Source: Bryobacteraceae bacterium
GTDB taxonomy: Bacteria; Acidobacteriota; Terriglobia; Bryobacterales; Bryobacteraceae
Assembly: GCA_026129905.1 (NCBI GenBank)
Contig: JAHCHE010000005.1
Span: forward strand, 186,001 to 250,000
Reading direction: 5' to 3'
DNA: 64,000 bases
The translations under genes and the position numbers were made by a program. Position 1 is the first letter of the stretch, and every line of letters begins with the position of its first letter. Shown here in pieces: positions 3,534 to 46,991 of this stretch. The notes beneath the pieces are model-generated. The model searched no databases and was not told the origin of the DNA. It saw only the letters and a program-made list of their open reading frames with translations.

Positions 3534-4085
3534 TCAGAGCGTTTGCAGCGAGGCGCCGGACAGCCGCCTCAACAGTTCCTCGAAGCGCGTGCCGGCCAGA
3601 GCCATCGAGTCGAGAAAATCGGGCGCTACTTCATCGAGATCTTCCACTTCCTCGTCCAGGCGCAGCTTCTCGCCGTATCCCAACCGGCTGGTGGTGGTGC
3701 GCAGGCGGTCCGTCAGAAAGGCCGCAATCGAGCGATAGAAACGGGCGGCGAAACCGGTGTCCTCCTCGAGCTTGGCCCGCAATTCGTGCCGCGAGATGAC
3801 CAGAACCACCGACTCGCGGCGGGCGCGGACGGAGGCCGACGGCGGGCGCGAATCCACAAACGACATTTCTCCCAGCACTTCGCCCGCGCGTAACAGCGCG
3901 ATGCCTTTGCCGTTGCCGATGTAGACTTCAAATTCGCCGTCGAGAACAAAAAACAAAGAATCGAGGGCCTTCTTTTCCTCGATGAGGATCGTGCCATCCG
4001 GCACGCTGCGCTTCAGGCCTGTGCGAATGATCCATTCGATGTCCATGTCATCGAGGATTCCCAGAAAAATCAGCGCCTTTCTCAT
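3534..4085 (-). CDS. Cyclic nucleotide-binding domain protein without DNA-binding domain
   Basis: A 183-residue cytoplasmic protein. Residues about 10-125 follow the cNMP-binding fold: RSVPDGTILIEEKKALDSLF, FVLDGEFEVYI, GEVLGEMSFVDSRPPSASVRA. The phosphate-binding cassette (GEMSF...R..SV) looks intact. No helix-turn-helix follows; the C-terminal 55 residues are charged and helical, so it is not a CRP-type regulator. ATG at 4085 is chosen because GGGAGG lies just upstream; an upstream in-frame ATG at 4124 would overlap the preceding gene. It starts 31 bp after the stop of the second exporter ABC gene. Similar domains accompany NHLP exporters, where their role is not established. Confidence 0.85.
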   Translation of the reverse strand: MRKALIFLGILDDMDIEWIIRTGLKRSVPDGTILIEEKKALDSLFFVLDGEFEVYIGNGKGIALLRAGEVLGEMSFVDSRPPSASVRARRESVVLVISRHELRAKLEEDTGFAARFYRSIAAFLTDRLRTTTSRLGYGEKLRLDEEVEDLDEVAPDFLDSMALAGTRFEELLRRLSGASLQTL

Positions 4086-4116
4086 GCAACCTCCCTTTTC
4101 CCTTAACGGGCGAGCG

Positions 4117-7014
4117 TCACGCAAGCTGCCTGGTAGCCAGTTCGGCGAACAGGCCCCCTCCCGCCATCAGCTCGCTGTAGGTACCGCTTTCGACCACCGC
4201 GCCCTTGTCCAGGACAAAGATGCGGTCCGCGCGAACAATTGTACTCAACCGGTGCGCGATCACGACGCGCGTCGCCTGGAGTTTTTCCAGGCTCCGGCTG
4301 ACGACGGCCTGCGTCTCGTTGTCCAACGCGCTGGTGGCTTCGTCGAATAACAGGATGCGCGGCTTGTGGACGATCGCCCGGGCGATCAGCAAGCGCTGGC
4401 GCTGCCCGCCGGACAGTCCGCCTCCGCCCTCGCTGACGACGGTGTGCATGCCCATGGGCATCGCCTTGATGTCCTGGTCGAATCCGACCATCCGGGCCGC
4501 TTCCCACGCGTCTTCGATGGTGAGCGGCGCCGAACCGATGATGTTCTGCAGAATATTGGCGGTAATCAGCTTGCTGGTTTGGAGCACCACGCCGATCTGC
4601 CGCCGGATTGCGCGGATATCGCGGCCGGCAAGATCCTGGCCGTCGTAGTAAATGGCTCCGGACTCCGGCTTATCGAAACCCAAAAGAAGCCGGAATACCG
4701 TGGATTTTCCGCTGCTGGAGGCGCCCACGATGGCCACGAACTTGCCGGCCGGCGCGCTCAGCGACAGATCCTTCAAGACGAGTGGCGCATCCGGGCGATA
4801 GCGGAACGAGACGCGCTTCACTTCGATGTCGCCGGCGAGCGCGCCCGGCTTGCACTTGGCGCGATCCACCTCCGGCAGCGTCTCCAGGATCGGCTTGGCC
4901 CGCTCGTACAAAGGAACGATGGCGGCCACCGAAACAACCGCCGCGCTCAGTTGCAGCATCGCGGCCAGGTACTGCCCGAAGGCTACGTAGAAGGCGAGGA
5001 ATTCCCCCGTTGACAGCGCCGCGTGGCCGGGTCCCTCCGCCAGCGCGGCCATGGCGTAGAAAACCAGCATCGCGCAGACCACCGGAAAGACCGCATGGAA
5101 CACCGCCAGCGCGTTCGACACGCCGCGGGCCTTCAGGGCCTCCCGTTTCTGGGCCGCGAACTCGCCCGCCCAGACCGCGAACGCCCGGCTTTCCGCGCCC
5201 GCGACGCGGAGCTTGGAGATGCCGCCGATGAGTTGCAGCGCCAGGCTGGCGATGCGGCCGCGAATCCGGGTAATCTCTCGCTGGCGGCGCACCTGCAGGT
5301 AACCGCAGAGGGCCGTGACCAGAACGGCGATCGTCACAAGCGCTAGAGCCAGGAATGCGAGCCGCCAACTGTAGTAGAAGAGGAGCGCGAAATTCAGAAC
5401 GGAGAAGATGCCGGACAGGAGAGCTGAGAGCGCCGGCCCGGTGAGCGCCTGGCGCATCTGGTCGATGCCCAGCCCGCGCGAGGCAAGGTCGCCCGAGGAG
5501 TAATCGCGGAAGAACTGAACGGGCAGGCCGATCAGGCGGTCCCAGACGGCGGCCTGAATGGACGCTTCCATCTTGCCTTCCAGCCGCAGCGCGGCCAGCC
5601 CGCGCGCCAGGTGAAACAGCGCGCTGCAAACCGCCATCGCCAGCAGGAACAGGGAGAGTTGAAAAAGCTGCTGGCGCTCGGCGCCCGGAATGACGGAATC
5701 GAAGATGATGCCGGTGGCGACGGGAACAACCAGGCCCGCCACACCGATCGCGGCGCCGAACACCGCGATCCAGAGGAGATCCTTGCCGCAGCCCCGGACG
5801 CCGAACGCCAGCAGGTCGCCGGCGCCCAGTCTTCTTTCCGGAAACGCGCGGTAGAAGGCGAACGCATAGGGACCGAGCTTCGACGCGATCCGCGAATCGA
5901 CTTTCCCAGGGCGGGCTTCCGCCGGATCGTGCAGCGCGTACCGCCCTGAAGACGTCGGAATCAGCGCGATAGGGCGGTTGCCCTCTTCGAAGAACGCCAC
6001 CAGCGGTCCGCTGTCGGTCCGCCACCAGCGTCCTGACAGTATCACGCGCCGCACCCGGACTCCGGAAGCGTGGGCGATGTCCTCAACCGTCGCCGGGCCG
6101 CCCAGGCGCGCGTCGGGAGGAAGCTCGATGGCGATGCCCAGGCGGCGGCCGACGATGCGGCAAGCAGCGAGCAGAGGATTGCCTGCTTCATCCTCGAGCG
6201 GGGCGGCGTCGGAGCGATCGCGAAGCGGCGCGCCCAATCGCCGGAGTGCGGCATCGAGGCGCGAGGCGTCAGACCGCGCCTTTTGCCGGAGGCGCTCCGA
6301 TTCGGCCGCTTCCTCGCGGTCGGCGTTCTCCTCGAGCCGAGCCATCATCAGGCGATGGAACAGGTGGAGTCCGGCGGCGTCCCGGTCGGCCGCGAGCATC
6401 TGGCGGGTCGAAACGCCGGAAAGCCTGGCTTTGGGCCGCGCTTCCAGCCATCCAGGCGCCGAAACCGGAAAGTACTCGTCTGCCCCGAGCGGCGAACGGT
6501 CGTCTCCAAGGAAGCGCGACTCGCCTTCCGAATGCGCCACCCACACGACGCCCTCGCGCGGAAAGACGGCGGCCGCGTCCCTGCCGATCGCGATCTCCTT
6601 GCCGGGCTCCAGGGCCTCGAAAGCTTTCGGCGCCAAGTCGCCCGAGGCGGCCCCGGCGAAGGCGACGATCCAGCCTTCCAGCAGTTCCGCGGCGCCGCCG
6701 GTTTCCACCGAGGCCGCCATCTCGCGCAAACGGGCCTGGGACGCCTCCACCACGCGCGCGTCGGGCGACAACCGCGCCAGCAGCCGGCGGCCGGTTTCCG
6801 GTTCCGGCAGACCGAAGATGGCCGCGCCTGCGCCCACTCGCAACGTGTGCCGCAGCGCGCCGCGGAGTTCGCCGTTTTCGGCCCGAACGACGAACAGGTC
6901 CACGCTGCCGGCCTCCACCAGCCAGGCCTTCTCCGGATCGTGGACAAGGAACTCGCGGCCGGCGCCGGCGCGGACAGCCGCCGTGCTCTCGCTGGATGCC
7001 GGAATGGCTTGCAC
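4117..7014 (-). CDS. NHLP-family bacteriocin export ABC transporter, permease/ATPase subunit without peptidase domain
   Basis: A 965-residue inner-membrane exporter subunit. It lacks a C39 peptidase; residues 1 to about 400 are a large soluble N-terminal region typical of the second ABC protein of nitrile-hydratase-leader peptide (NHLM) export systems. Membrane segments lie at about 415-690 (LLWIAVFGAAIGVAGLVVPV and others). The nucleotide-binding domain spans about 730-960, with Walker A GASSSGKST, signature LSGGQRQR, Walker [13 protein letters not shown] and switch His in VIAHRLST. It follows the C39-containing partner by 12 bp, so the pair probably forms a heteromeric exporter coupled to the HlyD and TolC-type proteins upstream. 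Confidence 0.88.
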   Translation of the reverse strand: MQAIPASSESTAAVRAGAGREFLVHDPEKAWLVEAGSVDLFVVRAENGELRGALRHTLRVGAGAAIFGLPEPETGRRLLARLSPDARVVEASQARLREMAASVETGGAAELLEGWIVAFAGAASGDLAPKAFEALEPGKEIAIGRDAAAVFPREGVVWVAHSEGESRFLGDDRSPLGADEYFPVSAPGWLEARPKARLSGVSTRQMLAADRDAAGLHLFHRLMMARLEENADREEAAESERLRQKARSDASRLDAALRRLGAPLRDRSDAAPLEDEAGNPLLAACRIVGRRLGIAIELPPDARLGGPATVEDIAHASGVRVRRVILSGRWWRTDSGPLVAFFEEGNRPIALIPTSSGRYALHDPAEARPGKVDSRIASKLGPYAFAFYRAFPERRLGAGDLLAFGVRGCGKDLLWIAVFGAAIGVAGLVVPVATGIIFDSVIPGAERQQLFQLSLFLLAMAVCSALFHLARGLAALRLEGKMEASIQAAVWDRLIGLPVQFFRDYSSGDLASRGLGIDQMRQALTGPALSALLSGIFSVLNFALLFYYSWRLAFLALALVTIAVLVTALCGYLQVRRQREITRIRGRIASLALQLIGGISKLRVAGAESRAFAVWAGEFAAQKREALKARGVSNALAVFHAVFPVVCAMLVFYAMAALAEGPGHAALSTGEFLAFYVAFGQYLAAMLQLSAAVVSVAAIVPLYERAKPILETLPEVDRAKCKPGALAGDIEVKRVSFRYRPDAPLVLKDLSLSAPAGKFVAIVGASSSGKSTVFRLLLGFDKPESGAIYYDGQDLAGRDIRAIRRQIGVVLQTSKLITANILQNIIGSAPLTIEDAWEAARMVGFDQDIKAMPMGMHTVVSEGGGGLSGGQRQRLLIARAIVHKPRILLFDEATSALDNETQAVVSRSLEKLQATRVVIAHRLSTIVRADRIFVLDKGAVVESGTYSELMAGGGLFAELATRQLA

Positions 7015-7026
7015 GACGGCGGCCCC

Positions 7027-9195
7027 CTATCCTGCCCTGATCAGGCGGGCGTACGGCCCGTCGCGTCCGATCATGTCGTCGTGCGAGCCGCGCTGGACCA
7101 CCTTGCCTCGCGAGAGCACGATGATTTCGTCGCAATCGCGGATCGTACTGAGGCGGTGCGCGACGATGAGACAGGCGCAGCCCCGGCGGCGGACATTGTC
7201 GTCTACCATCTTCTCCGTGCGGGCGTCCAGGGCGCTGGTGGCCTCGTCCAGAATCAACAGGCGCGGATTGCCGGTTAACGCTCGGGCTATTTCCAGACGC
7301 TGGCGCTGCCCTCCGCTGAAATTACGGCCATTTTCCTCCACAAGCGAATCGTAGCCGCCGGGGCGTTCCGAAATGTCGTCATGAATTAAGGCGTCCTTGC
7401 CCGCCTGAACGATCGCCTGGTCATCCACGGAACTGTCCCACAACGTAAGGTTTTCGCGGACCGTGCCCTCGAAAAGCAGGACGTCCTGGTCCACCAGCGC
7501 AATGGAGTTGGTCAGCGCGGGGCGGGGCGTCTCGCCGGCCGGCTTTCCGTCGAAGAGCACCTCGCCGGACCACGGCTCGTACAGACCCGAAGCCAGCTTG
7601 GCTACCGTCGATTTCCCGCTCCCCGTTCCGCCCACCAGCGCGATTCGTTGGCCCGGCTTCACCGTCAGATTGAACCCTTCGATCAGGGGAGGCTCGAGGC
7701 GGCTGTAGCCGAACGTCACGTTTCGCAGTTCCAGAGCGCCTTCGAGGCGGCTTGCTGCGGTCCCCTCGCGCGCTGTCTGAGGATCGACAGGGTAGCGGAA
7801 GACGTCATCGAGGCGGTTCATGTCGCCTTCGGCCTGCTGGAGCTTACCGCCGAGTTCCACCAGTTTGTTCACCGGCTCAAGGAAACTCAGCATTAATGCT
7901 TGAAACGCCACGAGCATCCCGATGGTTAGAAAACCGTCCATCACCCGCAGGCCGCCGACGCCGAGGATGGCGACCATGTTCAAGGAAGTGAGAAAAATCG
8001 GGAAAACGGACAGGGCCTGCGAGGCGGCGCCGAGCGATTGCTCCGCGTTGACCACTTTGGCCTGGTAGCCGGCCCAGCGGGCGAAGAAATCCGACTCCGA
8101 ACCCATCGCCTTCAACGTCTCGATGATCTGCAGGCCGCCCAGCGAGGCCCCCAGCAGCTTGCCTTTTTCCTGAAGCAGCTTCCGGTTGTCGTCCGTCCGT
8201 TTCCGCGAGACGAAGTGGAGCGCCAGCATATTGGCCGCGGCGATGGCGATGGCGACGACGGTGAGCGCGGCGTCGTACTGGAACATCAGCGCGGCGTAGA
8301 ATCCGATCACCGCGATGTTCACCAGGTTGGTCGCGACGTCGCCGGCCAGGAGCGCGGCAAGGCGGTCGTTAATCTCGACTCGCGCGCCGATTTCGCCGCC
8401 ATAGCGTTGGGCGAAGAACTCCATCGGCAGCCGTAGAACGTGCCAGAAGAAGCGGCTGGAGGAACTCAGCGCGAGCTTCGTTTCCAGCCGCGAAAGCGAA
8501 TTTTGCTGCAACCAGGTAAGAATGGCGCGGACAATCGCGGTCAGCGCCATGGCGATTAACAACGGCTTAAGCCAGGAATCCAGACCCTGCACCAGCACAT
8601 TATCGACGTAAATCTTGGAAAAAACCGGGATGAGGATGCCGGGCGCTACCAGGATCAGCGTGGCGAGTACGACATAGAGCAGGGCGAGGCGGCTCCCGGG
8701 CAGCCGCCGGCCCAGCGCCTGCCGAACGGTGTGGCGCTCGCCGCCGCGCCGGAAGTCCGGGCTCTTTTCAAACACAAGCGCGACGCCGGTAAACGACTGG
8801 TCGAATTCCTCGTCGCTGACCGTGCGCCGGCCGCTGGCCGGATCGTTCAGGTGGACGCGTCCCCGGGAGAAGCCTTCGACCACCAGGAAGTGGTTGAAGT
8901 TCCAGAAGACGATCATCGGCAGGGGAAGCCGGCGCAGGTCGGCGGGCTCTTTCTTGTAGCCTTTGGCCAGCAGGCCGTACTGGCGGGCGGCCTTGACGAT
9001 ATTGCTCGCCTTGCTGCCGTCGCGGGACACGCCGCAAGCGACGCGCAGTTCCTCCAGCGGCGCGATGCGGCCGTAGTAGCCGAGCACGATGCCAAGCGCC
9101 GCCGCGCCGCATTCGACGGCCTCCATCTGGAGCAGGGTCGGGGTTCGCACGCGGGAGGCCGGCCGCGACAGCTTTTTCCAGAACGAGTGGCCCAT
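7027..9195 (-). CDS. NHLP-family bacteriocin export ABC transporter with C39 leader peptidase
   Basis: A 722-residue peptidase/permease/ATPase that should cleave the precursor after Gly-Gly and export the core. Residues 1 to about 140 are the C39 peptidase: the catalytic Gln and Cys are in [12 protein letters not shown], the His in [11 protein letters not shown] and the Asp in HLNDPASG, so it appears active. Membrane segments run about 165-450. The ATPase spans about 485-722, with Walker [31 protein letters not shown] and [11 protein letters not shown] at 9195, 14 bp after the HlyD stop, fits the family N-terminus; upstream extension would run into that gene. It is the key argument that the divergent small gene at 12212 is a secreted peptide precursor. 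Confidence 0.92.
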
Positions 9196-9209
9196 AGCGC
9201 CGGCCGGGG

Positions 9210-10463
9210 TCAGCTCAACCCCAGCTTCTCCTTGAGAAACGGAAAGACCAGCTTCACGGGAGGATCCTCCCGGGTCACGATCCGCACCGAACAAATGGTG
9301 CCGCCGCTGATCTTCACCGGCGCTCCTTGCGGCGACGACCACCGGAAACCGCTGGGCGTGGACGGGTCCTCTTCCATGCGGAGCCGCAGTTCCGTCACGG
9401 GCCCAGCCGAGGCGAGCGCGCGCGCGAGGGGTGCATTCTCGAAGATCCGCATCAGCGCGGCCTCGGTGGCCGGATAGTCGGCCACCTGCACGACGCTGCC
9501 CCGGATGTAGCCATGCTCTTCGCGGCGCACCATCGAGGGCGAAATCTCCGCCTTCATTCCCGGCTGCACCTGCTTGGCGATGTCGGCGGGGATGTAGGCC
9601 ACCACCTCGAGTTCGCGGACGTCGGGCTGCACGCTGAGCAACGCGGTGCCGACATCCACCAGGTTGCCCACGCCGACCTTGAGTTCGAGGACCTGGCCGG
9701 AATACGGGCTCACGATGCGGGACGCGGCGGTGGTCTCCTTCTCGAGTGCCTCGAGGTTGCGTTCAAGGTCCATGATGCGCGCCTCGAGGCGAACGTCGTC
9801 CTCCAGGCCGTGCGTCTCCGTCTGAAACCGCGTGGCTTCCAGTTGGACGATCTGCGTCCGGAGCCGCTCGATGCTGCTCTGGATCTGCACCAGCTTCTGC
9901 CGGGCGACGATCACCTGCTGCCGCGTAATCAGGCCCTTGGAGAAAAGCTGTTCGTCCACGGGAATCTGTTCGCGCGCCAGCTTGGCCTGTTCCTCGAGGT
10001 CGCGGATCTCCTGCTCGGTATTGGCGCGCTGCTTGGCGATGGATTCAAGCTGGAGCTTCACGGCCCCGTCGCGGACGCGCCGCAGTTCCTCGCGCTCGCG
10101 GATGGCGTCGGACCGGCGGGCCTTGGCGATGCGGATCTGCTCCACCAGCGACGGCTGCGCGACAACGGCCACCACCTGGTTGGCCGACACGTGATCACCG
10201 ACCTTGGGATAGAGTTGCATTACCTGCCCCGCGCCCAGGCTGGCGACGTTCAACACGCCACCGGACCGGATCACGACCCCCTGACCGGAGGCCCGCGTGG
10301 CGATGATGCCCTGGTAGCCCCAGACCACCGCGACGCCCACCAGAATCATCAGCGCGGCCAGAGCGATCCAACTCCGGATCGTGACGACCCGCAGAAGCTG
10401 ATCCAACTGTTCCGGCGACGAGAGGCGGGCCAGCGAAACTTTGCGGAAGATATCGGTGTTCAT
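9210..10463 (-). CDS. NHLP bacteriocin system secretion adaptor, HlyD family
   Basis: A 417-residue periplasmic adaptor anchored by one N-terminal membrane segment (residues about 35-55, [19 protein letters not shown]). A lipoyl-like half motif ([13 protein letters not shown]) is followed by a long coiled coil at about 125-230 and by the second lipoyl half and barrel ([20 protein letters not shown]). Such adaptors bridge the inner-membrane exporter and the outer-membrane channel. It lies between the TolC-type gene (18 bp upstream) and the C39 ABC gene (14 bp downstream), so the five exporter-related genes probably form one operon. Confidence 0.88.
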
Positions 10464-10481: not shown

Positions 10482-12068
10482 TTACTTCGGCGCCTCTCCC
10501 TGAAATGGCATGACGCGGAAGATGGAGCCGTCCACCGGCTGCGCGATGCGGTCCGGATCGATCAGCGAGCCGGTGGCGAACCGGAAACGGGTGAGCGCCT
10601 CGGCATAGGCGAATTGCGCGCTCACAAAGTTGTTGAGGGCGTTGGTGAGGCGGTCCTCCACCGTTAGCAGATCCACCAGCGACCCGACGCCCAGCCGCAG
10701 TTTGTCGCGCTCGCCTTCCAGCGCGATTTCGTAGCCGCCCACCGACTCCCGCGCCTGCTTCAACCGCATAATGCCGTTGTGTACGCCGTTCAGGGCGGCC
10801 ACCACGGAAGCGGCGATCGTCCGCTCGATATCGTTGATGCGCAATTCCGACTGGTCGTAGGCGGCCTCGGCTTGCGCGAGGCGTCCTCGCGCGACGTTGT
10901 TGGAAGGCGCGAAGTTGTAGCGCAGGCTCAAGATAGCGTCCATGCCCTGGACGCGCGTGACGGGAGAAACCAGCAGGCGGTCGGGCCGCCGGCCTTCCTC
11001 CAGGCCGGAGAAGCCCGTGCTGAGGTTCAGGTCCACCTGCGGCATAACCTGGTTGCGGGCCGAAACACGCAACGTTGCGGTGGCTTCCCGCCGCTTCAAC
11101 GAGGCCAGGTGATCGGCCCGCCGCTCCAGCGCCTGTCGAATGTAGAACTCCACCGTTTCGCGCGCCAGCGAAGGCAGCGGCTGCGATTCGCCGTCGGGAA
11201 AGTCTTCTACTGGGCCGGGCATCGCCGCCATTTCCCCGCTGGTAAGGCCGATGGCCAGCGCCAGCGCCTGCTTCGCTTCAATGCTGCGCTGTTCGGCGGC
11301 GATTCTTCCCGCCGAGCGGTCGGCGAGGTTGGCCGCAATCTGGTGGATCTCGTTCCGCGGAACCTTGTCGGCCTCGATCAGCGTCCTGACATTGTCCAGC
11401 AGCAGGCGGCCGCGCTGTTCGGAACCGGCGATCACGTCCAGGCTCTTGCTTGCCGCCAGCGCTCGCCAGTACGCGATGGCCGTGTCGGCAATCGTTTCGG
11501 CCGCCACCTGGTTCAGATCGAAGAGGCTGGCGTCGACGACGTGCGCCGCCGCGGTTTCCCGCGCGGTTACCGCCTCGCGTCCGCGGTCGCGCAACAAGGG
11601 CAGGTTTACCTGGAAGCTGAACCGCGAGTGGTTGACGCCCAAGCGGTTCAGAATGTTGTCCGTCGTGCGGGTCATCTCGAGCACCGGACCGAAGCTGACG
11701 CCGGAGCGCAGCCGCTTGATGGCGTTGACGTTGTAGGAATACAGGTTGAGCCCGCGGTTGCCGGTGAGGACGCCGGTCTGCTCGGCCTGCAAGCGCTCGA
11801 ACGACGAGAGCGGATTATTGAGTCGGCCTTGGTCCGCCGACCAGTCGAGCAGCGTGTCGAACCGGCCGCTTTCCTCCTGCCGGACGCCGCGGCTGATATC
11901 CACCTGGCGCTGCTGAATCGTGATCAGAGGATTGCGCGAGAGGGCGGACCGGACGGCCTCGACGAGGGTAAGCCCCTCGCGATACGGAGGTTGCGTCGCC
12001 GGATCGCCCGCCGGCGCCGGTATCGCCGCGACGGCGAGACAAACGGTCAGTGCCCAGGTACAGCGCAC
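10482..12068 (-). CDS. TolC-family outer-membrane efflux channel
   Basis: A 528-residue outer-membrane factor: signal peptide at residues 1-20, then two long helical-hairpin repeats typical of TolC trimers (AETIADTAIAYWRALAASKS and LAQAEAAYDQSELRINDIER). It is the first gene of the exporter operon and supplies the outer-membrane exit for the peptide. The start is GTG at 12068 with only a weak ribosome-binding site. A TATACT element at 12119-12114 on the minus strand is a possible -10 box. The divergent peptide gene begins 143 bp away, so the two transcription units share one control region. Confidence 0.88.
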   Translation of the reverse strand: MRCTWALTVCLAVAAIPAPAGDPATQPPYREGLTLVEAVRSALSRNPLITIQQRQVDISRGVRQEESGRFDTLLDWSADQGRLNNPLSSFERLQAEQTGVLTGNRGLNLYSYNVNAIKRLRSGVSFGPVLEMTRTTDNILNRLGVNHSRFSFQVNLPLLRDRGREAVTARETAAAHVVDASLFDLNQVAAETIADTAIAYWRALAASKSLDVIAGSEQRGRLLLDNVRTLIEADKVPRNEIHQIAANLADRSAGRIAAEQRSIEAKQALALAIGLTSGEMAAMPGPVEDFPDGESQPLPSLARETVEFYIRQALERRADHLASLKRREATATLRVSARNQVMPQVDLNLSTGFSGLEEGRRPDRLLVSPVTRVQGMDAILSLRYNFAPSNNVARGRLAQAEAAYDQSELRINDIERTIAASVVAALNGVHNGIMRLKQARESVGGYEIALEGERDKLRLGVGSLVDLLTVEDRLTNALNNFVSAQFAYAEALTRFRFATGSLIDPDRIAQPVDGSIFRVMPFQGEAPK

Positions 12069-12174
12069 CGTAGTGTTCCCGGAAATCCCAGTCAGGGTAT
12101 TTAGCGTCCTTCGAGTATATCAAATGGCCTTCGCGCCTAAAGATTCTGAGGGACATTTCGGACGGAAGCCGATA

Positions 12175-12180
12175 TATAAT
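12175..12180 (+). promoter_or_regulatory. Probable -10 box of the RiPP precursor gene
   Basis: TATAAT is a perfect match to the housekeeping -10 consensus and lies 31 bp upstream of the GTG start at 12212. The bases 17 nt upstream of it (12152-12157, GACATT) are a poor -35. A strong ribosome-binding site, GGAGGGG at 12202-12208, follows. The combination of a consensus -10 and a consensus Shine-Dalgarno suggests a well-expressed peptide gene. Confidence 0.5.
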
Positions 12181-12211
12181 CGGAGGGTATCTCTACATTC
12201 CGGAGGGGAAC

Positions 12212-12505
12212 GTGTCTGGCGCAGAGAATCTGACTGTCGAGCAGATGGAGGCCCGGCTGGCGAGCCGGACCGGATCCGACGAGGCTTTCCGCAGCGAACT
12301 GGTCAACCACCCGCGACGGACGCTCGAATCGGAGTTCAATATCAAAATCCGCCCCGCATACGACGTGAAGGTGACCCTGGACGCCTCCAATCGTCCTCGC
12401 GTGGTGGTCGCGCGCCGCGAGAACTCCACCGAGCTTTCCGACGCGGATCTCGAATCCGTGGCCGGCGGTGCGTTGACCTGGCCCTTGCCTCCCGACTGGC
12501 CGTAA
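12212..12505 (+). CDS. RiPP precursor peptide, NHLP (nitrile hydratase-like leader) family, core ALTWPLPPDWP
   Basis: A 97-residue precursor beginning with GTG after the site GGAGGGG. Residues 1-86 resemble the nitrile hydratase alpha-subunit leader (EQMEARLASRTGSDEAFRSE, then HPRRTLESEFNIKI, then DVKVTL). The leader ends in ELSDADLESVAGG, the usual recognition and double-Gly cleavage motif for C39 exporters. Cleavage after Gly86 would release residues 87-97, ALTWPLPPDWP. This core has four Pro and two Trp, no Cys or Ser and one Thr. It is divergent from a complete NHLP exporter set. No lanthionine synthetase, YcaO, radical SAM or other known modifying enzyme is visible in the window. The family call rests on motifs and context; the product and its activity are unknown. 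Confidence 0.85.
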   Translation: MSGAENLTVEQMEARLASRTGSDEAFRSELVNHPRRTLESEFNIKIRPAYDVKVTLDASNRPRVVVARRENSTELSDADLESVAGGALTWPLPPDWP

Positions 12506-12535
12506 CGTAAGCGGCGCGTCCGGAAGCCCAGCCCG

Positions 12536-13957
12536 TTGCGAGACAATATACCTGTGCGTCCGCTCATCGCCTCTCTTACTCTGCTCGCGGCTGGGTTCAC
12601 GCTCGCATCGTACGAACCAAAGATCGACCCACGGCTCGACCGCGCCTATAAGCTCGAGCCGCGCAACGGCTGGACATTCGTTCACCTGGAAGGCGCGCCG
12701 TCGGAAATCGGCTTCCAGCACGGCTACCTGCTGGCCAAAGAGATCGAGGACGGCTACAAGGTCATCATCTTCGAAACCGAGCACGACACCGATAAGGACT
12801 GGGAGTTCTTCCGGCGCGCCGCCCGCGAGGTCCACTGGCCGCGCATCGAGCGCGAGTACCGCGAGGAGATGCAGGGCATCGCCGACGGGCTGAAGGCTCG
12901 CGGCGTGAAGTTCGACGTCTGGGACGTCGCCGCGGTGAACGCCTGGCTGGAGTGGGGCGGCTACGTGAAGCTCTACGACAAGGAGCACGGTAAGCAGCCG
13001 CCGTCCACCGTAACGCCGCGCGAATCGTGCAGCGCGTTTGTGGCCACCGGAAGTTACTCGAAGGACGGCCGGGTGGTGATGGCGCATAACGCCTGGACGT
13101 CCTACATGGACGGGCAACGCTGGACGATGGTGTTCGACATCGCCCCGCGGAGCGGTCACCGCATCCTGATGGACGGCTATCCCGGTTTGATCCACAGCGC
13201 GGACGATTTCGGCGTGAACGCGGCGGGCATCATGATTACCGAGACGACGATCTCGAAATTCTCCGGCTACGATCCGAAGGGCGTCCCCGAATTCGTGCGG
13301 GCGCGAAAAGCGATGCAGTACTCCGCCTCCATCGACGATTTCGCGCGAATCATGCGGGAGGGCAACAACGGCGGCTACGCCAACAACTGGCTGGTGGCGG
13401 ACCGCAAAAACGGGGAGATCGGCAGCCTGGAGCTCGGCCTCAAGAACACGGAACTACGGCGCACGAAGGACGGCTATTTCGTCGGCTCCAACTTTCCGGT
13501 CAACGAAAAACTAGCGCGGGAGGAGACCGACTTCCCCCTGGACAACATGAGCCTCAGCCCGAACGCGCGGCGCGTCCGCTGGACCGAATTGATGGAACAA
13601 AACAAGGGACGCATCGACGTCGAGGCCGCTCAGCGGTTCCTGGCCGATCACTGGGACAGCTACGAAAACAAGGAGGCGCCCAGCGAGCGCACCCTGTGCG
13701 GCCACGTGGACCTCTCGCCCCGCGGCGTTCCGGACTGGCAGCCTCCCTATGGAATCGCCGGCGCGGTGCAGAACAAAGCCATCGATTCGCGCCTCGCCGA
13801 GGGCATGTCGCTTGTCGTGGCCGCCGGCCATGCCTGCGGCCGGGATTTCCATGCCGCGGAGCACCTGGCGAAGCATCCCGAGTTCGCCTGGCAGAAGGGC
13901 GTCCTGCGCGACATGCCGTCGCGGCCCTGGACGCCATTTCGTATCGATCAGCGCTGA
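12536..13957 (+). CDS. C45-family autoproteolytic acyltransferase/hydrolase-like protein (phospholipase B-like), secreted
   Basis: A protein of about 473 residues with an N-terminal export signal (RPLIASLTLLAAGFTLA). The fold is that of the AAT/C45 Ntn-hydrolase group: a Gly-rich FQHGYLLAKEI segment, then PRESCSAFVATGS, where Cys165 would be the nucleophile exposed by self-cleavage, then VVMAHN. Members cleave or form amide bonds (isopenicillin N acyltransferase, acid ceramidase-like and phospholipase B-like enzymes). The start is uncertain: TTG 12536 gives six extra residues, while GTG 12554 gives a cleaner signal peptide. It begins 30 bp after the peptide precursor and in the same direction, so co-transcription is likely. 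A role in peptide acylation, hydrolysis or immunity is speculation. Confidence 0.8.
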   Translation: MRDNIPVRPLIASLTLLAAGFTLASYEPKIDPRLDRAYKLEPRNGWTFVHLEGAPSEIGFQHGYLLAKEIEDGYKVIIFETEHDTDKDWEFFRRAAREVHWPRIEREYREEMQGIADGLKARGVKFDVWDVAAVNAWLEWGGYVKLYDKEHGKQPPSTVTPRESCSAFVATGSYSKDGRVVMAHNAWTSYMDGQRWTMVFDIAPRSGHRILMDGYPGLIHSADDFGVNAAGIMITETTISKFSGYDPKGVPEFVRARKAMQYSASIDDFARIMREGNNGGYANNWLVADRKNGEIGSLELGLKNTELRRTKDGYFVGSNFPVNEKLAREETDFPLDNMSLSPNARRVRWTELMEQNKGRIDVEAAQRFLADHWDSYENKEAPSERTLCGHVDLSPRGVPDWQPPYGIAGAVQNKAIDSRLAEGMSLVVAAGHACGRDFHAAEHLAKHPEFAWQKGVLRDMPSRPWTPFRIDQR

Positions 13958-14011
13958 GGCCCGCCGCGCCGCGCAAGATGGCTGGGCCGGCGCGCCGCTA
14001 GCGGGCGCCAC

Positions 14012-14722
<711 letters not shown>

Positions 14723-26114: not shown

Positions 26115-27593
26115 TCACAACCGGCAGCGGCGCACGGCGCGGCGCCAGCCGTCCAGGAGGGCATCGCGGGCGGGGGCCGTTATGGAAGGCTCGAACACGC
26201 GTTCGGCTTTCCAGAAGCCTTCGAGTTCGGCGGGGTCTTTCCAGAAGCGGGTTGCCAGCCCCGCCAGATAGGCGGCGCCCAGCGCGGTGGTTTCCGTGTC
26301 CACCGGACGCACCACCGGGATGCCGAGGATGTCCGCCTGGAATTGCATCAGGAAGTTGTTCACCGCCGCCCCGCCGTCGGCGCGGAGTTCCGTGATGCGC
26401 TGGCCGCTGCCCGCCTCCAGCGCCTCCACCAACTCCCGCGTCTGGTAGGCGATGGCCTCAAGAGCCGCTCGCGCCAGTTGCGCCCGGCCCGCGCCACGCG
26501 TGATGCCGGTGATCAGCCCGCGGGCCGAGGAATCCCAGTAGGGCGCTCCGAGCCCGACAAAGGCCGGAACGAAGTAGACGCCGCCGTTGTCCGGAATCGA
26601 CGCGGCAAGCTGCTCGGATTCCTCCGCGCTGCGCAGCGTCCCCACCTCGTCTCGGAGCCACTGTAGAGCGGCGCCGGCGATGAAGACGCTGCCCTCCATT
26701 GCGAACTGCGCCACGGAATCCGCCGAGGCGGCGCGGGTGGCCACCAGCCCGGAGTTCGACGCCGGTAGGCGGCTTCCGGTGTGAATCAGGGCGAAACAAC
26801 CGGTGCCATAGGTGTTCTTCGAAAGTCCGGGCCGGAAGCAGGCCTGTCCGAACAGCGCCGCCTGCTGGTCTCCGGCGATGCCGGCGATGGGAATCTCCGC
26901 GCCGAGGTGTTCGGCCATCGCCGTCCCGATCACGGAACTCGAGGGGACGATCCGCGGCAGCATCGAGCGCGGAACGTCGAAGATGCCCAGCAGTTCGTCG
27001 TCCCAGTCGCCGGTGGCCAGGTCCATCAGCATCGTGCGCGAGGCGTTGGTGAAATCGGTGGCGTGCACGGCGCCGTTGGTGAGCTGCCAGACGAGCCATG
27101 TGTCGACGTTCCCGAACAGCAGATCGCCGGCGTCGGCCCGCTCCCGCGCGCCGGGCGTCTCCTCGATAATCCAGCGGATCTTGCTGGCGGAGAAATAGGC
27201 GTCGATCACCAACCCGGTTTTCCCCGTGATCGGCGCCCCCGCCGGCGAGGAAGCCAAGGCGGCGCAGTAGTCCGCGGTCCGCCGGCACTGCCAGACGATT
27301 GCGGGCGCCACGGGCTGTCCGGTCTGCCGGTCCCAGACGATCGTGGTTTCCCTCTGGTTGGTGATGCCGAGCGCGACGATTTCCGAAGGCCGGACGGCCG
27401 CCGCCCGCATCAGGCGCCGAGCGGATTCCCGTTGCGCCCGCCAGATGGCGCCGGGGTCCTGCTCTACCCAACCCGGCTGCGGATACGCGCACTCCACCGG
27501 ACAGGATTCCATCGCCAGGCGGCGCCCGCTCTCGTCGTATAGAACGGAGCGTGCGCTGGTGGTTCCTTCATCGAGCGCGAGCAGGTATTGCAC
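26115..27593 (-). CDS. glpK: Glycerol kinase
   Basis: A 492-residue FGGY-family kinase converting glycerol and ATP to sn-glycerol 3-phosphate. Signatures: LLALDEGTTSARSVLYDE (ATP-binding phosphate 1), TNQRETTIVWDR, DAYFSASKIRWIIEE, GTGCFALIHTG (phosphate 2) and the adenosine motif TELRADGGAAVNNFLMQ. The glycerol contacts (RET, the W-Q-R segment, and Asp and Gln in AGDQQAALFGQ) are present. It starts at GTG 27593. The divergent gene starts 14 bp away, so the two promoters must overlap coding sequence. No glpF or glpD is adjacent. Confidence 0.95.
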   Translation of the reverse strand: MQYLLALDEGTTSARSVLYDESGRRLAMESCPVECAYPQPGWVEQDPGAIWRAQRESARRLMRAAAVRPSEIVALGITNQRETTIVWDRQTGQPVAPAIVWQCRRTADYCAALASSPAGAPITGKTGLVIDAYFSASKIRWIIEETPGARERADAGDLLFGNVDTWLVWQLTNGAVHATDFTNASRTMLMDLATGDWDDELLGIFDVPRSMLPRIVPSSSVIGTAMAEHLGAEIPIAGIAGDQQAALFGQACFRPGLSKNTYGTGCFALIHTGSRLPASNSGLVATRAASADSVAQFAMEGSVFIAGAALQWLRDEVGTLRSAEESEQLAASIPDNGGVYFVPAFVGLGAPYWDSSARGLITGITRGAGRAQLARAALEAIAYQTRELVEALEAGSGQRITELRADGGAAVNNFLMQFQADILGIPVVRPVDTETTALGAAYLAGLATRFWKDPAELEGFWKAERVFEPSITAPARDALLDGWRRAVRRCRL

Positions 27594-27607
27594 CCGGGCA
27601 TTATAGA

Positions 27608-28060
27608 ATGAAGGCGATGTTCTTTCGCAGGGCGAAGCCGCGCCAATACTCGTTCGCCGAGCGCCTCGAGATGGTCAAACAGGGCGGCTTTGCCGTGCAA
27701 GACCTGGACTCCCGCCAAGCCGTCGCGGTGCGCAGCGGCTGCGCCGCTCTGATCGAGGACGGCGACAAACCGCGGATCGTCCGCGCCGGGTGGCTGGTCG
27801 GTCGCGAGATCGGGGAACTCGTCGATCTCGGCTATCAGAAGGAATGGCGCGCGGCCTCGGGCGCGCGGGAACCCGCCCTCGCCAATCAGCTTAAGTCCCT
27901 GCACGCCTTTCTGGAGGACCTGCGGGAAACGCTGGGTCTCGCCAGCTACTACAACGAATCGCTCGGTACGGTGAACGATTCGCACCTCTACGACCGCGTC
28001 GAGGGCCGCGAGAGCGGCGCCCCCAAGACGCTGCTTTCCCCGGCCGGCCGCGCGCATTGA
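27608..28060 (+). CDS. Conserved hypothetical protein, 150 residues
   Basis: I do not recognise a family. The protein begins MKAMFFRRAKPRQYSFAERL and has compact mixed secondary structure with no membrane segment. FAVQDLDSRQAVAVRSGCAA and RAGWLVGREIGELVDLGYQK look like beta strands, and the segment at about 90-125 is helical. ATG 27608 or ATG 27617 could be the start; the hexamer TATAGA immediately before suggests a very short leader. It is divergent from glpK (14 bp between start codons) and convergent with the frameshifted gene at 28067-28458. Confidence 0.65.
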   Translation: MKAMFFRRAKPRQYSFAERLEMVKQGGFAVQDLDSRQAVAVRSGCAALIEDGDKPRIVRAGWLVGREIGELVDLGYQKEWRAASGAREPALANQLKSLHAFLEDLRETLGLASYYNESLGTVNDSHLYDRVEGRESGAPKTLLSPAGRAH

Positions 28061-34144: not shown

Positions 34145-35416
34145 TCACTCCGTGCTGGATGGCGGCAATTGCCGCTCCTCCTTGAATTTCGTGACGCGGG
34201 AAACCATCTCGGTGACCGCGTACCAGAGATCTCGGGGACGGCTGATCGTGTATTCCACGCCCTTGAAATACCTCACCGCGTTGCCGATCGCATCGCGCCA
34301 CGGCGTCACGCGCGGATAGAGGTTGTAGTTCATATAGAAGACGGGAAAGGGAATCTCGCCCAGCGCCTCCAGTTCCTGCCGCGGCGGGCTCTTCTCGAGC
34401 AACGCTTTCGGCCCGGCGAAAATCACCGCGTCGGGACGGTCCCCCAACAACTCCTGGCGCAGAAGCTCGGTCAAAAATCGTACCTCGCCGTCCTCTTCGG
34501 ATAAACGCCTCAGATCGATTGTGCCGAGATTCAAGCTCTCCAGCGACGACCCGAGCGCCGGGAAGTCGATCCGGGTGACGCGATCCTGCCGCTGAATGAT
34601 CCTCTGCTCGTGCAGATTGAACGCCACCAGCGAAAACTTTCCGATTCGAGACTCCCTGGAAATCGTCCGAAGTATGGACACTAATGCAGACGTATCGACG
34701 GGCTGCAAGGTTGCCGCGCGGGCATTCTGCGGCGCGAAGTTGACCAGGACCTTGACGTTGAGGCAGTCCTTGCCGGAGGCCCGAATCACCGGCGGTTCCT
34801 CCTTGAACTGCTCGAACTCCATCTCGGCGATCTCGCCCGCCGTCAGCGCCAGATCGATCTGCTTGTCTCGATCCGGCAACGAGGCTTCCATATCCCAGTA
34901 CGACGAGCAGACCCGCTCCGTCCGGTCGCGCATCAGCCAATCGACCTTGTAGACGCCTTCGCCGATATCGAATCCACCCTGGAGAAACGCATCGCCACGG
35001 GCGCTTTCTTCAATCTCGGGGACGCGTACTCGCTGCATGAAATAACGCCGTTCGCCCGCGGGATTCTGAGGCGTGACGCGGAACAGAATCGTGAGCAGGT
35101 TCTCCTTGCCCACCATTTCGCGCAGCGGCACCCCGACTTCATAGTTCGTGTGGAATCGAAGATCGAATCCTAGAACCGGCTTGTTCCACGTGACCACGCA
35201 AGGCAGGTCCTTCCGGGGATCCTGCGCCTCCAGGACCGCCATGTCGGTGTTGTGGATCCGCACCACGCCGGAAGCCGCCGAAGTCTTCATCAGCACCTGA
35301 GCCAGCCCCGTACCCGGCAAGCTCAGCAGGAGCGCGGATACCGCGAGCTTAACGGTGCGGCGGGTTCCTCTGCCGGAGCGTGGCGTGGGCGCACACCAAC
35401 CGTGAACGGCCTTCAC
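34145..35416 (-). CDS. Acidobacterial secreted protein, VWA-like fold
   Basis: A 423-residue exported protein: residues about 20-40 form a signal peptide (LAVSALLLSLPGTGLAQ). The middle (FRVTPQNPAGERRYFMQRVR) contains beta-rich sequence. The C-terminal half has a strand-helix pattern like von Willebrand A-type domains (LNVKVLVNFAPQNARA, then SRIGKFSLVAFNLHEQRIIQ, then DAVIFAGPKALLEKS), but a clear MIDAS DxSxS motif is not seen. Function unknown. It starts with GTG at 35416, the nearest plausible start for the signal peptide. It is first in the four-gene run ending with bshB1. Confidence 0.75.
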   Translation of the reverse strand: MKAVHGWCAPTPRSGRGTRRTVKLAVSALLLSLPGTGLAQVLMKTSAASGVVRIHNTDMAVLEAQDPRKDLPCVVTWNKPVLGFDLRFHTNYEVGVPLREMVGKENLLTILFRVTPQNPAGERRYFMQRVRVPEIEESARGDAFLQGGFDIGEGVYKVDWLMRDRTERVCSSYWDMEASLPDRDKQIDLALTAGEIAEMEFEQFKEEPPVIRASGKDCLNVKVLVNFAPQNARAATLQPVDTSALVSILRTISRESRIGKFSLVAFNLHEQRIIQRQDRVTRIDFPALGSSLESLNLGTIDLRRLSEEDGEVRFLTELLRQELLGDRPDAVIFAGPKALLEKSPPRQELEALGEIPFPVFYMNYNLYPRVTPWRDAIGNAVRYFKGVEYTISRPRDLWYAVTEMVSRVTKFKEERQLPPSSTE

Positions 35417-42386: not shown

Positions 42387-43883
42387 ATGATTGGACGTTC
42401 GATGCTGTGGAAGCCCCAGTTGGATGCCGGCTCCGAGGTGGCGCTATACCGCCAGCTCTTCGAGCAAATACGGGCTGCGATCGAATCGGGCTCGCTCGGC
42501 GAAGGCGACCGGCTGCCGCCGACCCGCGAATTGGCTGGCCAACTTGGACTGAATCGCACGACGGTGACGGCGGCCTACCGGCTGCTGGAATCGGAAGGGC
42601 TGATCAGCGGGCAGGTGGGACGGGGAAGCTACGTCGCCGGCGCGGCCGCGGGACGAACGGCGCTGCGCTGGGACCGGATGCTGGCGCGCGCGCCGGGCGA
42701 CGCGGTCCATCCACCGTCGCTGGCCGCCTCGGCTGGGACGATCAGCTTCGCCACGTCGCGGCCGTCCGAAGAGTTGTTTCCCACGCGCGAGTTTCGGGCG
42801 ACGATCGATGAAGTGGTGGGCGGCGGGGCGGTGGGCGAACTGCTGCAACTCGGCTCGCCGAACGGATATGCGCCGCTGCGGAGGCACCTGCTGGAGGAGG
42901 CGCGGCAAGCGGGCATCGCGCGTCGCAGCGACGACATCATCGTCACCAGCGGCTGCCAGCAGGCGCTCGATCTGCTGCAACGGGTCCTGATCGCGCCGGG
43001 CGACGCGGTGGCGGTGGAGGATCCGGTGTACCCGGGCGTACATCACGCGCTGGCGCGGGGCGGGGCGCGGGTTTTGGGCGCGCCTGTCGGAGCGGATGGG
43101 ATCGACGTTCCGCGGCTGGAGCAGGTGGTTCGGGAGGCGAGCCCCAAGGCTCTCGTGGTGACGCCGAATTTCCAGAACCCGACTGGGGCCACGCTGCCGC
43201 TGGAGGCGCGCGAGGCGATTCTCCGCATCGCGAAAGCCCACGGCGTGATCGTGGTGGAGAACGACATCTACGGCGAGCTGCGCTATCACGGCGCCGCGCT
43301 GCCGACGCTGAAGCAGTTGGACGAGACGGGCGACGTGGTGCAGCTCCGGAGTTTTTCCAAGATCGCGTTTCCGGGCCTGCGGGTCGGTTGGGTGATCGCG
43401 CCGCGGCCGCTGACGGCGGAACTGGCCGAGGCGAAGCAATGGTCGGACCTGCACACGGACCACCTGTCGCAGGCGGTGCTGCTGCGATTCGCGCAATCGG
43501 GACGGCTGGCGGTTCACCGGCAGCGGGTGGTGAAAGCGGGAGCGGAACGGCTGGCGGCGGCGTTGCAGGCGTGCGAAAAGCTGCTGCCGGACGGCGCGCG
43601 CTTCACGCGGCCGCGCGGCGGCATGAGCCTATGGGTGACCCTGCCGGCGGGGCTGGACGCGGGCGAGATGCTGCCGCGGGCGCACCGGGAGAACGTGACC
43701 TACCTGCCGGGAAAGTACTTCTCGGTGAACCGGCCGCATTCGGGCAGTCTGCGGCTGAGTTTCGCGGGGCTGCCTCCGGATAAGATCCGGAAAGGAATCG
43801 CGGTCCTGGGCGGCGTTTTTGGCGAGGAACTCGAGCGGGCGAGGGAAGCGGCAAATTCCGAGCCCGTTCCGGCGATGGTTTGA
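42387..43883 (+). CDS. MocR/PdxR-type GntR regulator with aminotransferase-like domain
   Basis: A 498-residue fusion. Residues about 5-80 are a GntR winged helix (LYRQLFEQIRAAIESGSLGE, then DRLPPTRELAGQLGLNRTTV). Residues about 110-490 are an aspartate aminotransferase fold with the PLP-binding Lys in SFSKIAFPG and the Tyr/Asn pocket in NFQNPTGATLP. PdxR, a member of this family, controls pdxST, and pdxS starts 61 bp downstream here in the same direction. An aminotransferase function cannot be excluded. ATG 42387 or 42402 are both possible starts. Confidence 0.88.
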   Translation: MIGRSMLWKPQLDAGSEVALYRQLFEQIRAAIESGSLGEGDRLPPTRELAGQLGLNRTTVTAAYRLLESEGLISGQVGRGSYVAGAAAGRTALRWDRMLARAPGDAVHPPSLAASAGTISFATSRPSEELFPTREFRATIDEVVGGGAVGELLQLGSPNGYAPLRRHLLEEARQAGIARRSDDIIVTSGCQQALDLLQRVLIAPGDAVAVEDPVYPGVHHALARGGARVLGAPVGADGIDVPRLEQVVREASPKALVVTPNFQNPTGATLPLEAREAILRIAKAHGVIVVENDIYGELRYHGAALPTLKQLDETGDVVQLRSFSKIAFPGLRVGWVIAPRPLTAELAEAKQWSDLHTDHLSQAVLLRFAQSGRLAVHRQRVVKAGAERLAAALQACEKLLPDGARFTRPRGGMSLWVTLPAGLDAGEMLPRAHRENVTYLPGKYFSVNRPHSGSLRLSFAGLPPDKIRKGIAVLGGVFGEELERAREAANSEPVPAMV

Positions 43884-45804: not shown

Positions 45805-46626
45805 TCAGGGCTTGCGCGCGCGTACGAATCCGCTGAAGAACTTCCCGTCAACCAGCGGCGCGACGCGATCGACGTCGAGGCCTTTCTCAGTGAGGAACTC
45901 GCGGGCCTGGCTGGTCTCGTAGACGCGGGTGGGCTCGATGCCGGCGTCGGTAAAACCGGCGGCGCGCAGCCTGGACAGGTAGTCGTTCTCGTCGAGCGCG
46001 CCGGCGATGCAGCCGACCCAGAGTTCAATGCTGCGGCGGATGTCCGGCGGGATCTCGCCCCTTGTGACCACGTCGGAGACGGCGAAGCGGCCGCCGGGCT
46101 TGAGGACCCGGAAGGCCTCGCGCAGTACCTTGTCCTTGTCGGCGGAGAGATTGATGACGCAGTTGGAGATGACGACGTCGACGGAATTGTCGGGCAGGGG
46201 GATGTTCTCCATTTCGCCCCTGAGAAACTCGACATTCTTCACGCCAGATTTCTCTTTGTTTTCCTCGGCGAGGGCGAGCATTTCGTCGGTCATGTCGAGG
46301 CCGTACGCTTTGCCGGAGGGGCCGACGCGGCGGGCCGAAAGCAGGACGTCGATGCCGCCGCCGGAACCGAGGTCGAGGACCACTTCGCCGGGCTTGAGTT
46401 CGGCGAGCGCGGTGGGATTGCCGCAGCCGAGCGAGGCCAGCAGCGCCTCTTCGGGGATCTCGGAGGCCTGGCCGCTATCGTAGAGGTTGGCGGTGATGGG
46501 ATCGCAGGCGCCGAGCGGCTGCGCTTTTCCGGTTCCGCAGCAGGACGACTTGCCTCCTTCGAGCACTTGCAGCGCGGCTTGTCCGTAGCGTTGCCGCACG
46601 ACTTCCTTGACGTTGGCGGTGGTCAC
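45805..46626 (-). CDS. arsM: Arsenite S-adenosylmethionine methyltransferase
   Basis: A 273-residue enzyme that methylates As(III) for detoxification. Rossmann motif I is VLDLGSGGGIDVLLSA. The three conserved arsenic-binding cysteines are visible in SLGCGNP, SNCVINL and WVGCIAG, and an N-terminal Cys pair SSCCGTG is also typical. GTG 46626 is chosen because AAGGAG lies 6 bp upstream; earlier in-frame codons overlap arsR. It follows the regulator gene by 14 bp, so it is the second gene of an arsR-arsM operon. Confidence 0.93.
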   Translation of the reverse strand: MTTANVKEVVRQRYGQAALQVLEGGKSSCCGTGKAQPLGACDPITANLYDSGQASEIPEEALLASLGCGNPTALAELKPGEVVLDLGSGGGIDVLLSARRVGPSGKAYGLDMTDEMLALAEENKEKSGVKNVEFLRGEMENIPLPDNSVDVVISNCVINLSADKDKVLREAFRVLKPGGRFAVSDVVTRGEIPPDIRRSIELWVGCIAGALDENDYLSRLRAAGFTDAGIEPTRVYETSQAREFLTEKGLDVDRVAPLVDGKFFSGFVRARKP

Positions 46627-46640
46627 GTTATTCTCCTTAT

Positions 46641-46991
46641 TTAACGGCAAATTCGCACGATTTCTTCCGGTTCGACGGCCTTGTTCCGCGTGCAGCACTC
46701 GGCGTAGAGGAAGGTCAGCAATTCCTGAAGCGCCTCGGCGTTGGCGCGATAGCGCAGAAAGGTTCCTTCGCGCGAAACGAGGACGAGGCCCTCGCTCTTC
46801 AGCTTCTCGAGGTGGTGGGAGAGCGTGGAGGGGGCGATGTCGAGCTCCGACTGGATGTCGCCGACCACGAGGCCATCCGGGTGGGCCGACAGCAAGATGC
46901 GGAGAATGCGCAAGCGGGCCTCGGCGCCGATGGCGGCGAACATGTCGGCGTAGCGGACGATCTGTTCCTGACGAATAGCGGTCCTGGGCAT
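46641..46991 (-). CDS. arsR: ArsR-family metalloregulator
   Basis: A 116-residue winged-helix repressor: MFAAIGAEARLRILRILLSA, then the recognition helix in DIQSELDIAPSTLSHHLEKL. A C-terminal Cys pair in YAECCTRNK could form the As(III) site; the classical CxC in the DNA-binding helix is absent, so the sensor type differs from plasmid R773 ArsR. ATG 46991 has no ribosome-binding site and lies about 6 bases from the predicted transcription start, implying an almost leaderless mRNA. The family is known to repress its own operon. Confidence 0.9.
   Translation of the reverse strand: MPRTAIRQEQIVRYADMFAAIGAEARLRILRILLSAHPDGLVVGDIQSELDIAPSTLSHHLEKLKSEGLVLVSREGTFLRYRANAEALQELLTFLYAECCTRNKAVEPEEIVRICR

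Follow-up and report, generated by a model that had tools for sequence, protein, structure and literature searches.

Precursor peptides that carry a nitrile-hydratase-like (NHLP) leader and have known products are generally modified. What, then, becomes of an NHLP-type precursor whose core is nearly devoid of residues on which the common chemistries act? The question is raised by a short ORF in a 64,000-nucleotide stretch of DNA from a Bryobacteraceae bacterium, hereafter the window. Here, we describe using profile searches, structure prediction and comparison of related loci that this ORF combines a recognisable leader and a Gly-Gly cleavage motif with an adjoining complete NHLM exporter that retains the key residues of its C39 peptidase, and that the neighbours scanned include no recognised maturase. 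We propose, with a probability of roughly 0.55, that the precursor enters NHLM export, is cleaved after Gly86 and yields a linear, largely unmodified 11-mer. The features that enter the argument are collected in Table 1.

Table 1. Coordinates of the precursor, its neighbours in the window, and two fused frames of related genomes.
Feature	Position	Strand	Remarks
NHLP-type precursor	12212..12505	+	GTG start, 97 aa, TAA stop
Ribosome-binding site GGAGG	12202..12206	+	5 bp ahead of start codon, read from sequence
Leader, residues 1-86	12212..12469	+	LSDADL-ESVA-GG end (LXXXXL motif, four residues, Gly-Gly)
Core ALTWPLPPDWP, residues 87-97	12470..12502	+	
C45-type acyltransferase/hydrolase	12557..13957	+	51 bp downstream of precursor
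TolC-type outer-membrane channel	10482..12068	-	PF02321 7e-27; TIGR01844 75.6 bits, below cut-off 225; divergent from precursor
NHLM secretion adaptor, HlyD type	9210..10463	-	TIGR03794 330 bits, cut-off 156
NHLM peptidase/permease/ATPase (ABC1) with C39 peptidase	7027..9342	-	TIGR03796 1111 bits, cut-off 853
NHLM permease/ATPase (ABC2)	4117..7014	-	TIGR03797 970 bits, cut-off 709
cNMP-binding bacteriocin-transport-associated protein	3534..4124	-	TIGR03896 172 bits, cut-off 161; model positions 139-317 of 317
Fused NHLP-like/terpene-cyclase-like frame	L008:1360-2775	+	similar in L006, L011, L012
Fused NHLP-like/terpene-cyclase-like frame	L010:965-2332	+	similar in L006, L011, L012

The original prediction had divided the ORF into an 86-residue leader ending LESVAGG and the core ALTWPLPPDWP, and this division holds on re-reading of the sequence, the terminal residues of the leader being ELSDADLESVAGG. 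Its NHLP assignment, for which it had proposed a search against the leader models, stands as well: the NCBIfam model TIGR03793 matches residues 10-86 (E 7.3e-12), reaching the end of the model and terminating at the Gly-Gly of the precursor, at 45.0 bits against a curated cut-off of 50.9 that is a naming threshold and not a biological feature. The precursors of two related exporter loci, L043 and L104, also score below this value (45.2 and 41.4 bits, respectively). Nitrile hydratase alpha is matched more weakly (TIGR01323, E 0.003; Pfam PF02979, E 0.002); the leader shares this homology without the metal-binding Cys motif, and the whole protein is free of Cys. A leader profile of 36 other precursors, with the window's own left out, found the ORF as its sole match (54.3 bits) among 268 window ORFs of 60-300 aa and gave zero matches in 20 dinucleotide shuffles of the window, but is not fully independent because its rows were recruited by an iterative search begun from the window protein; TIGR03793, unlike this profile, provides fully independent support. 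The AlphaFold model of the precursor is of modest confidence (mean pLDDT 67, pTM 0.45) and shows three helices and two strands, with a separate helix over the LSDADL motif. Foldseek returned no match to this model at E 0.001, its top two being NMR structures of proteusins, 9cjx (E 0.014, probability 1.00) and 8tb1 (E 0.066, probability 0.99), the latter of which is also the best PDB match by sequence (E 0.0014). Proteusin leaders, as described in the excerpted text of PMC10858898, place an LXXXXL motif four residues ahead of Gly-Gly, and the spacing in LSDADL-ESVA-GG is the same.

Conservation ends where a leader should be cut. Eighteen precursors can be aligned up to a Gly-Gly or Ala-Gly and diverge beyond it, and a census of 44 cores, discussed below, likewise has the Gly-Gly as the end of conservation with a hypervariable core beyond; exceptions that lack Gly-Gly occur among other matches of the same leader. 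One detail counts against our reading, as the leader reads VVA where most aligned leaders have V(L/I)P. The original prediction had regarded a leader-like sequence conserved straight through the Gly-Gly as speaking against a precursor; such continuity is absent from the 18 aligned sequences but is seen in part elsewhere, in five of the ten precursor-matched genomes (L006, L008 and L010-L012), where an NHLP-like domain opens frames of 456-472 aa. These fused frames have no Gly-Gly and run on into a region weakly similar to squalene/hopene cyclases; the NHLP-like domains of the two that were scanned score 48 and 43 bits with TIGR03793, and several frames lie, by coordinates, near an NHLM permease gene (G099, G105, G106 and G120). 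Some NHLP-like domains are therefore something other than cleaved leaders. For the window we keep the precursor reading, at unchanged odds, since the protein is short, retains LESVAGG and stops 11 residues later. The fused NHLP-like/terpene-cyclase-like proteins may be more novel than the window precursor.

The precursor ORF has a base composition of coding type. No sigma-70 promoter consensus was found in 11900-14100, and Rfam gave no match above gathering score in positions 1-30000 of the window. A regular-expression scan of the window and 40 kb of contig upstream found no further convincing GG-type precursor. Across the genome, one NHLP-like gene has a meaningful score, two other matches standing at E 0.44 and 1.1, and no Nif11 leader exceeds its cut-off.

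The strongest functional evidence for the precursor is the adjacent NHLM exporter, a full transporter set that is divergent from it and goes unmentioned in the original prediction. The HlyD-type adaptor, ABC1 and ABC2 each fall into their NHLM equivalog family, and the C39 domain aligns with the LahT protease domain 6mpz at E 8e-46, its Q, C, H and D positions paired with identical residues, which we take to be the catalytic ones. The true start of the ABC1 gene may lie downstream of the listed one, as the TIGR03796 match begins at residue 66. Judged by sequence, the ORF is very probably an NHLP precursor with its own exporter; that this exporter acts on this precursor we infer from adjacency and precedent.

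The NHLM permease/ATPase is found in 21 of 250 related genomes (E <= 1e-100), and a collection scan with the peptidase subunit, for which 65 loci were fetched, returned loci of 65-69% identity from assemblies labelled Acidobacteria, Bryobacterales and Terriglobia. Across the phylum, TIGR03793 matches 39 of 396 genomes at E <= 1e-4 and 16 over its cut-off. In genome G031, the HlyD-ABC1-ABC2-cNMP genes of the sister locus L104 have an NHLP precursor immediately upstream, whose core, a 31-mer, contains three Trp and neither Cys nor Ser. In the literature searched, we identified no publication on NHLM or NHLP systems of soil acidobacteria; PMC9426513, in the portion drawn on here, describes NHLP-type RiPP clusters with modifying enzymes as well as a high biosynthetic potential of Acidobacteriota in sponge microbiomes, and that portion does not link the two.

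A separate observation at the sister loci concerns an unclassified Cys-rich protein of 356 aa (L104:15783-16853), which has no Pfam or NCBIfam match at E 0.01 and has other copies at L102:19179-19997 (cut), L246 and L247/L248. It is present in four of 250 relatives and absent from the window's genome at E 1e-15. Three of the four holders (G045, G020 and G031) also rank first to third by score among the other genomes with the window's NHLM permease; the gene shares a contig with the exporter in G020 and G031 but not in G045, and in all three genomes short-leader GG-type precursor ORFs (58-96 aa as listed) adjoin it. The fourth holder, G003, is outside the 21 exporter holders and has a two-piece match, with no such precursor seen. 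Very short GG-leader precursors occur at L102:17644-18488 (- strand), at L104:16921-17130 (+ strand) and as three ORFs of L246, many with Ala/Pro in their tails and one weakly similar to CTB-family bacteriocins. The Cys-rich protein may be an undescribed NHLM-associated partner or maturase, and may be more novel than the window precursor.

Which chemistries could the core of the window precursor support? Its composition is exactly as originally stated, with four Pro, two Trp, two Leu and one each of Ala, Thr and Asp, and without Cys or Ser; Lys and Arg are lacking too, Thr89 is the sole Thr, and Pro follows both Trp. The calculated [M+H]+ of the unmodified core is 1292.667 and its [M+2H]2+ 646.837. 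Lanthionine chemistry is excluded because the core has no Cys, which places the peptide outside the lanthipeptides. The azol(in)e peptides (TOMMs) fit no better, with Thr89 as the only possible azol(in)e residue and the YcaO gene on another contig, so that the original judgement that both chemistries are essentially excluded is upheld. Selidamides and the products of peptide arginases, enzymes treated in PMC12703449, involve Lys, Arg or Orn in the core; the window core has neither Lys nor Arg, so the peptide belongs to neither group.

No RiPP maturase was recognised by Pfam among 29 window proteins, the precursor included, or among 10 of the 15 called ORFs in the upstream 20 kb, one of which is without a match; three further window proteins were scanned with NCBIfam only. 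Coverage was sparse at 49.8-64 kb and extended upstream over the nearer 20 kb; Lon and ClpB (named by eye) are among several window genes beyond the scanned set. The window proteins at 27551-28057, 34148-35416 and 42447-43517 have no Pfam match at E 1e-5. Methyltransferase-type proteins are present (45808-46698 and L121:12348-12986), with nothing that ties them to the peptide. At the related loci L038, L042, L082, L102 and L104, ten further genes, three of them without a match, include no recognised maturase either. DUF4135 (LanM) has no match in the genome, but its control was equally silent, so that the absence of LanM is unproven. With no maturase recognised among the neighbours scanned and hardly a core residue on which the common chemistries could act, we favour a linear and largely unmodified exported peptide, although the sequence makes this only somewhat more probable than not.

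In the mechanism that we propose, the leader would fold as a truncated nitrile-hydratase-like domain whose LSDADL helix the exporter recognises, ABC1 would cut after Gly86 with its C39 domain, and ABC1/ABC2 together with HlyD and TolC would carry the 11-mer across both membranes. The exported peptide, linear and largely unmodified, might then act as a signal or competition factor, a role that is a guess from the family. Several points count against this explanation, among them that the leader scores below the curated cut-off, that no homologue of the core was found, and that enzymes can act in trans.

The last of these points would apply if a maturase from another part of the genome, for example a radical-SAM enzyme or flavin halogenase that targets Trp or a YcaO that targets Thr89, modified the core before its export by NHLM, which we consider possible, clearly short of an even chance. 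The genome has candidates, all of them on other contigs and none on contig C45: a YcaO over cut-off on contig C3, two loci with flavin-halogenase-like genes, and SPASM radical-SAM genes with four matches over cut-off, of which two are on C58. NHLP precursors distant from modification and export genes are described in Haft et al, 2010 (PMC2887384). The halogenase SrpI, according to the excerpted text of PMC10858898, adds bromine to the Trp at the C-terminus of an NHLP core and also takes the Cys-free core LTVLPW as substrate; a ThiF-like enzyme is described as cyclising through the Trp indole in the part of PMC12150305 used here. Against such trans-modification stands that six stretches near the YcaO, radical-SAM and halogenase-like genes, searched by GG-motif scan and by eye, contain no convincing precursor, that neither Trp of the window core is C-terminal, unlike in SrpE, and is instead followed by Pro, and that a single Thr gives azoline chemistry little to work on. 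The Trp- or Asp-directed chemistry floated in the original prediction, if carried out by an unlinked enzyme, is conceivable as the alternative to an unmodified product. On contig C58 (L238:1082-4764), the two SPASM radical-SAM genes follow a small PqqD-like ORF and are accompanied by a radical-SAM ORF of B12 type, where "PqqD-like" and "B12" are labels assigned by eye; no precursor was recognised there.

A degenerate or orphaned precursor, in which the maturase was lost, the core drifted or was truncated and nothing active is made, is in our view improbable. It would account for a core without a detected homologue, a leader score below the curated cut-off and the lack of a recognised maturase, and there is a parallel in a related NHLP gene (L116:8894-9787, core LYYCV) that adjoins an apparent ABC transporter ATPase remnant, recognised by eye, which suggests a decayed NHLM locus. 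In the window, by contrast, the exporter genes keep their full length and score above curated cut-offs, and the precursor retains a Shine-Dalgarno site, a coding-type base composition and a leader recognisable to its last Gly.

The remaining neighbour is the C45-type gene downstream, after which ABC-exporter genes follow on the + strand. Of 151 relatives, 75 have a C45 homologue, with identities reaching 74%; among the genomes with a precursor match, the window's own is the only one in this set of 75. No NHLM gene, and no copy of the precursor at >=35% identity, was seen in the 29 further C45 loci that the search returned (3-4.4 kb each) or in eight extended C45 flanks (15-20 kb). We therefore treat the C45 gene as an incidental neighbour, and a functional link with the precursor was judged unlikely. 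An operon whose enzyme acylates or processes the peptide would suit the shared strand, the short gap and the lack of a + strand terminator-like site in 11900-14100, but is very improbable given how widespread C45 is at loci of other kinds and that the core, without Lys, offers one Thr as side-chain acceptor.

How unusual is the core of this precursor, which we continue to read as the probable source of a largely unmodified peptide? A clear boundary delimits 44 distinct cores; Cys is missing from 12 of them, and both Cys and Ser from eight, the window core included, which is not an unbiased frequency as the census mixes leader-fetched with exporter-fetched loci. The census began with 70 distinct precursor-like rows, from which those without a recognisable Gly-Gly-type boundary, longer than 230 aa or weaker than E 1e-6 were dropped, and ORFs longer than 330 aa never entered. 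Another look at 39 loci without a length limit found one more Gly-Gly precursor (L126, whose core has Cys and Ser) together with fused NHLP-like and nitrile-hydratase-like proteins, none of which was added to the 44. The original premise that NHLP cores are normally rich in Cys, Ser or Thr is thus right in that most cores have Cys or Ser, but exceptions recur. Haft et al, 2010 had already noted NHLPs in species where neither TOMM nor lanthionine enzymes are known. Among other relatives, the NHLP cores RCCCCA, RCCCCF and LYYCV were seen, and L130/L160 and L172:11269-11520 encode LCCCW, identical to the core of the sponge-associated SrpE as given in the excerpt of PMC10858898.

Homologues of the core itself, for which a pattern like W-P-x-P-P-D-W had been suggested, were not found. 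Exact peptide patterns gave no whole-precursor homologue in the genome and viral contig collections. Precursor matches at E <= 0.001 occur in 10 of 151 related genomes, its own included, at 11 places; the places read hold no core similar to ALTWPLPPDWP, and the genomes searched comprise no other species of the same genus. A tblastn search with the precursor led to three plasmid records (Tistrella, Nostoc and Azospirillum). The five cores of the Tistrella and Nostoc records are all Cys-free and differ from the window core; one of the three from Tistrella is also Ser-free, and the other two and both Nostoc cores bear Ser. The Nostoc sp. UHCC 0926 plasmid pn1 (L250, ~8600-10200) carries two unannotated NHLP precursors, with cores ATIGIYGPLQIVKS and AVIGVIGPLQYVKS, which lie near a radical-SAM-like ORF recognised by eye. 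With Cys/Ser-free cores recurring, no maturase recognised nearby and no core homologue found, the undescribed RiPP class that the core had seemed to imply is not borne out: the ORF belongs to a peptide family already known, within which it is slightly unusual.

On a wider scale, an NHLM lineage in Bryobacterales-like acidobacteria may have given up its maturases, so that its NHLP leaders would now do no more than mark small unmodified Trp/Pro peptides for export and cleavage, a tentative idea whose chance we put slightly below even. If true, an NHLP leader and an NHLM exporter would make up an independent system for peptide secretion as well as serving as the final stage of RiPP pathways. With one precursor, one complete exporter and no recognised enzyme adjoining, the window provides a minimal and clean case for asking whether NHLM also secretes unmodified peptides. 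Cys/Ser richness is, moreover, an unsuitable filter in NHLP precursor mining.

Comparison with known systems places the locus as follows. The other seven Cys/Ser-free cores, which include RRAPHEEENWWG (L118), VNRNNVNL (L043), the Trp-bearing 31-mer of L104 and three KAVAG-type cores of 9-10 residues such as KAVAGMLPVK (L107), resemble the window core in that those of L118, L043, L107 and L104 are short or Trp-bearing and come after an NHLP leader, but have no evident similarity to it in sequence. Their loci can differ as well: L107 has a LanM-type gene, and L043 (4372-18808) combines its precursor and NHLM exporter with GNAT, UPF0489 (peptide-arginase-like), DUF7005 and B12 radical-SAM genes and is a candidate for an ornithine-containing, possibly acylated or methylated product. 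The SrpE/SrpI and MprE7 proteusins share with the window the NHLP leader and the placement of its LXXXXL motif relative to the Gly-Gly. SrpE also has a very short core with Trp, LCCCW, in which Cys are cyclodehydrated and the C-terminal Trp is brominated, whereas in the window each Trp precedes a Pro and no halogenase was found nearby. With the NHLP/proteusin family at large (TIGR03793; PMC2887384, in excerpt), the window has in common a nitrile-hydratase-alpha-like leader without the metal site, the Gly-Gly, a hypervariable core and an adjoining three-gene NHLM transporter, and it departs from the family in its leader score, its one-Thr core free of Cys and Ser, and the lack of a recognised maturase nearby. 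As to export, all four families of the NHLM export system (TIGR03794, TIGR03796, TIGR03797 and TIGR03896) are represented over their cut-offs, the C39 key residues are in place, TolC comes next in the same orientation, and no essential difference from the known system was seen.
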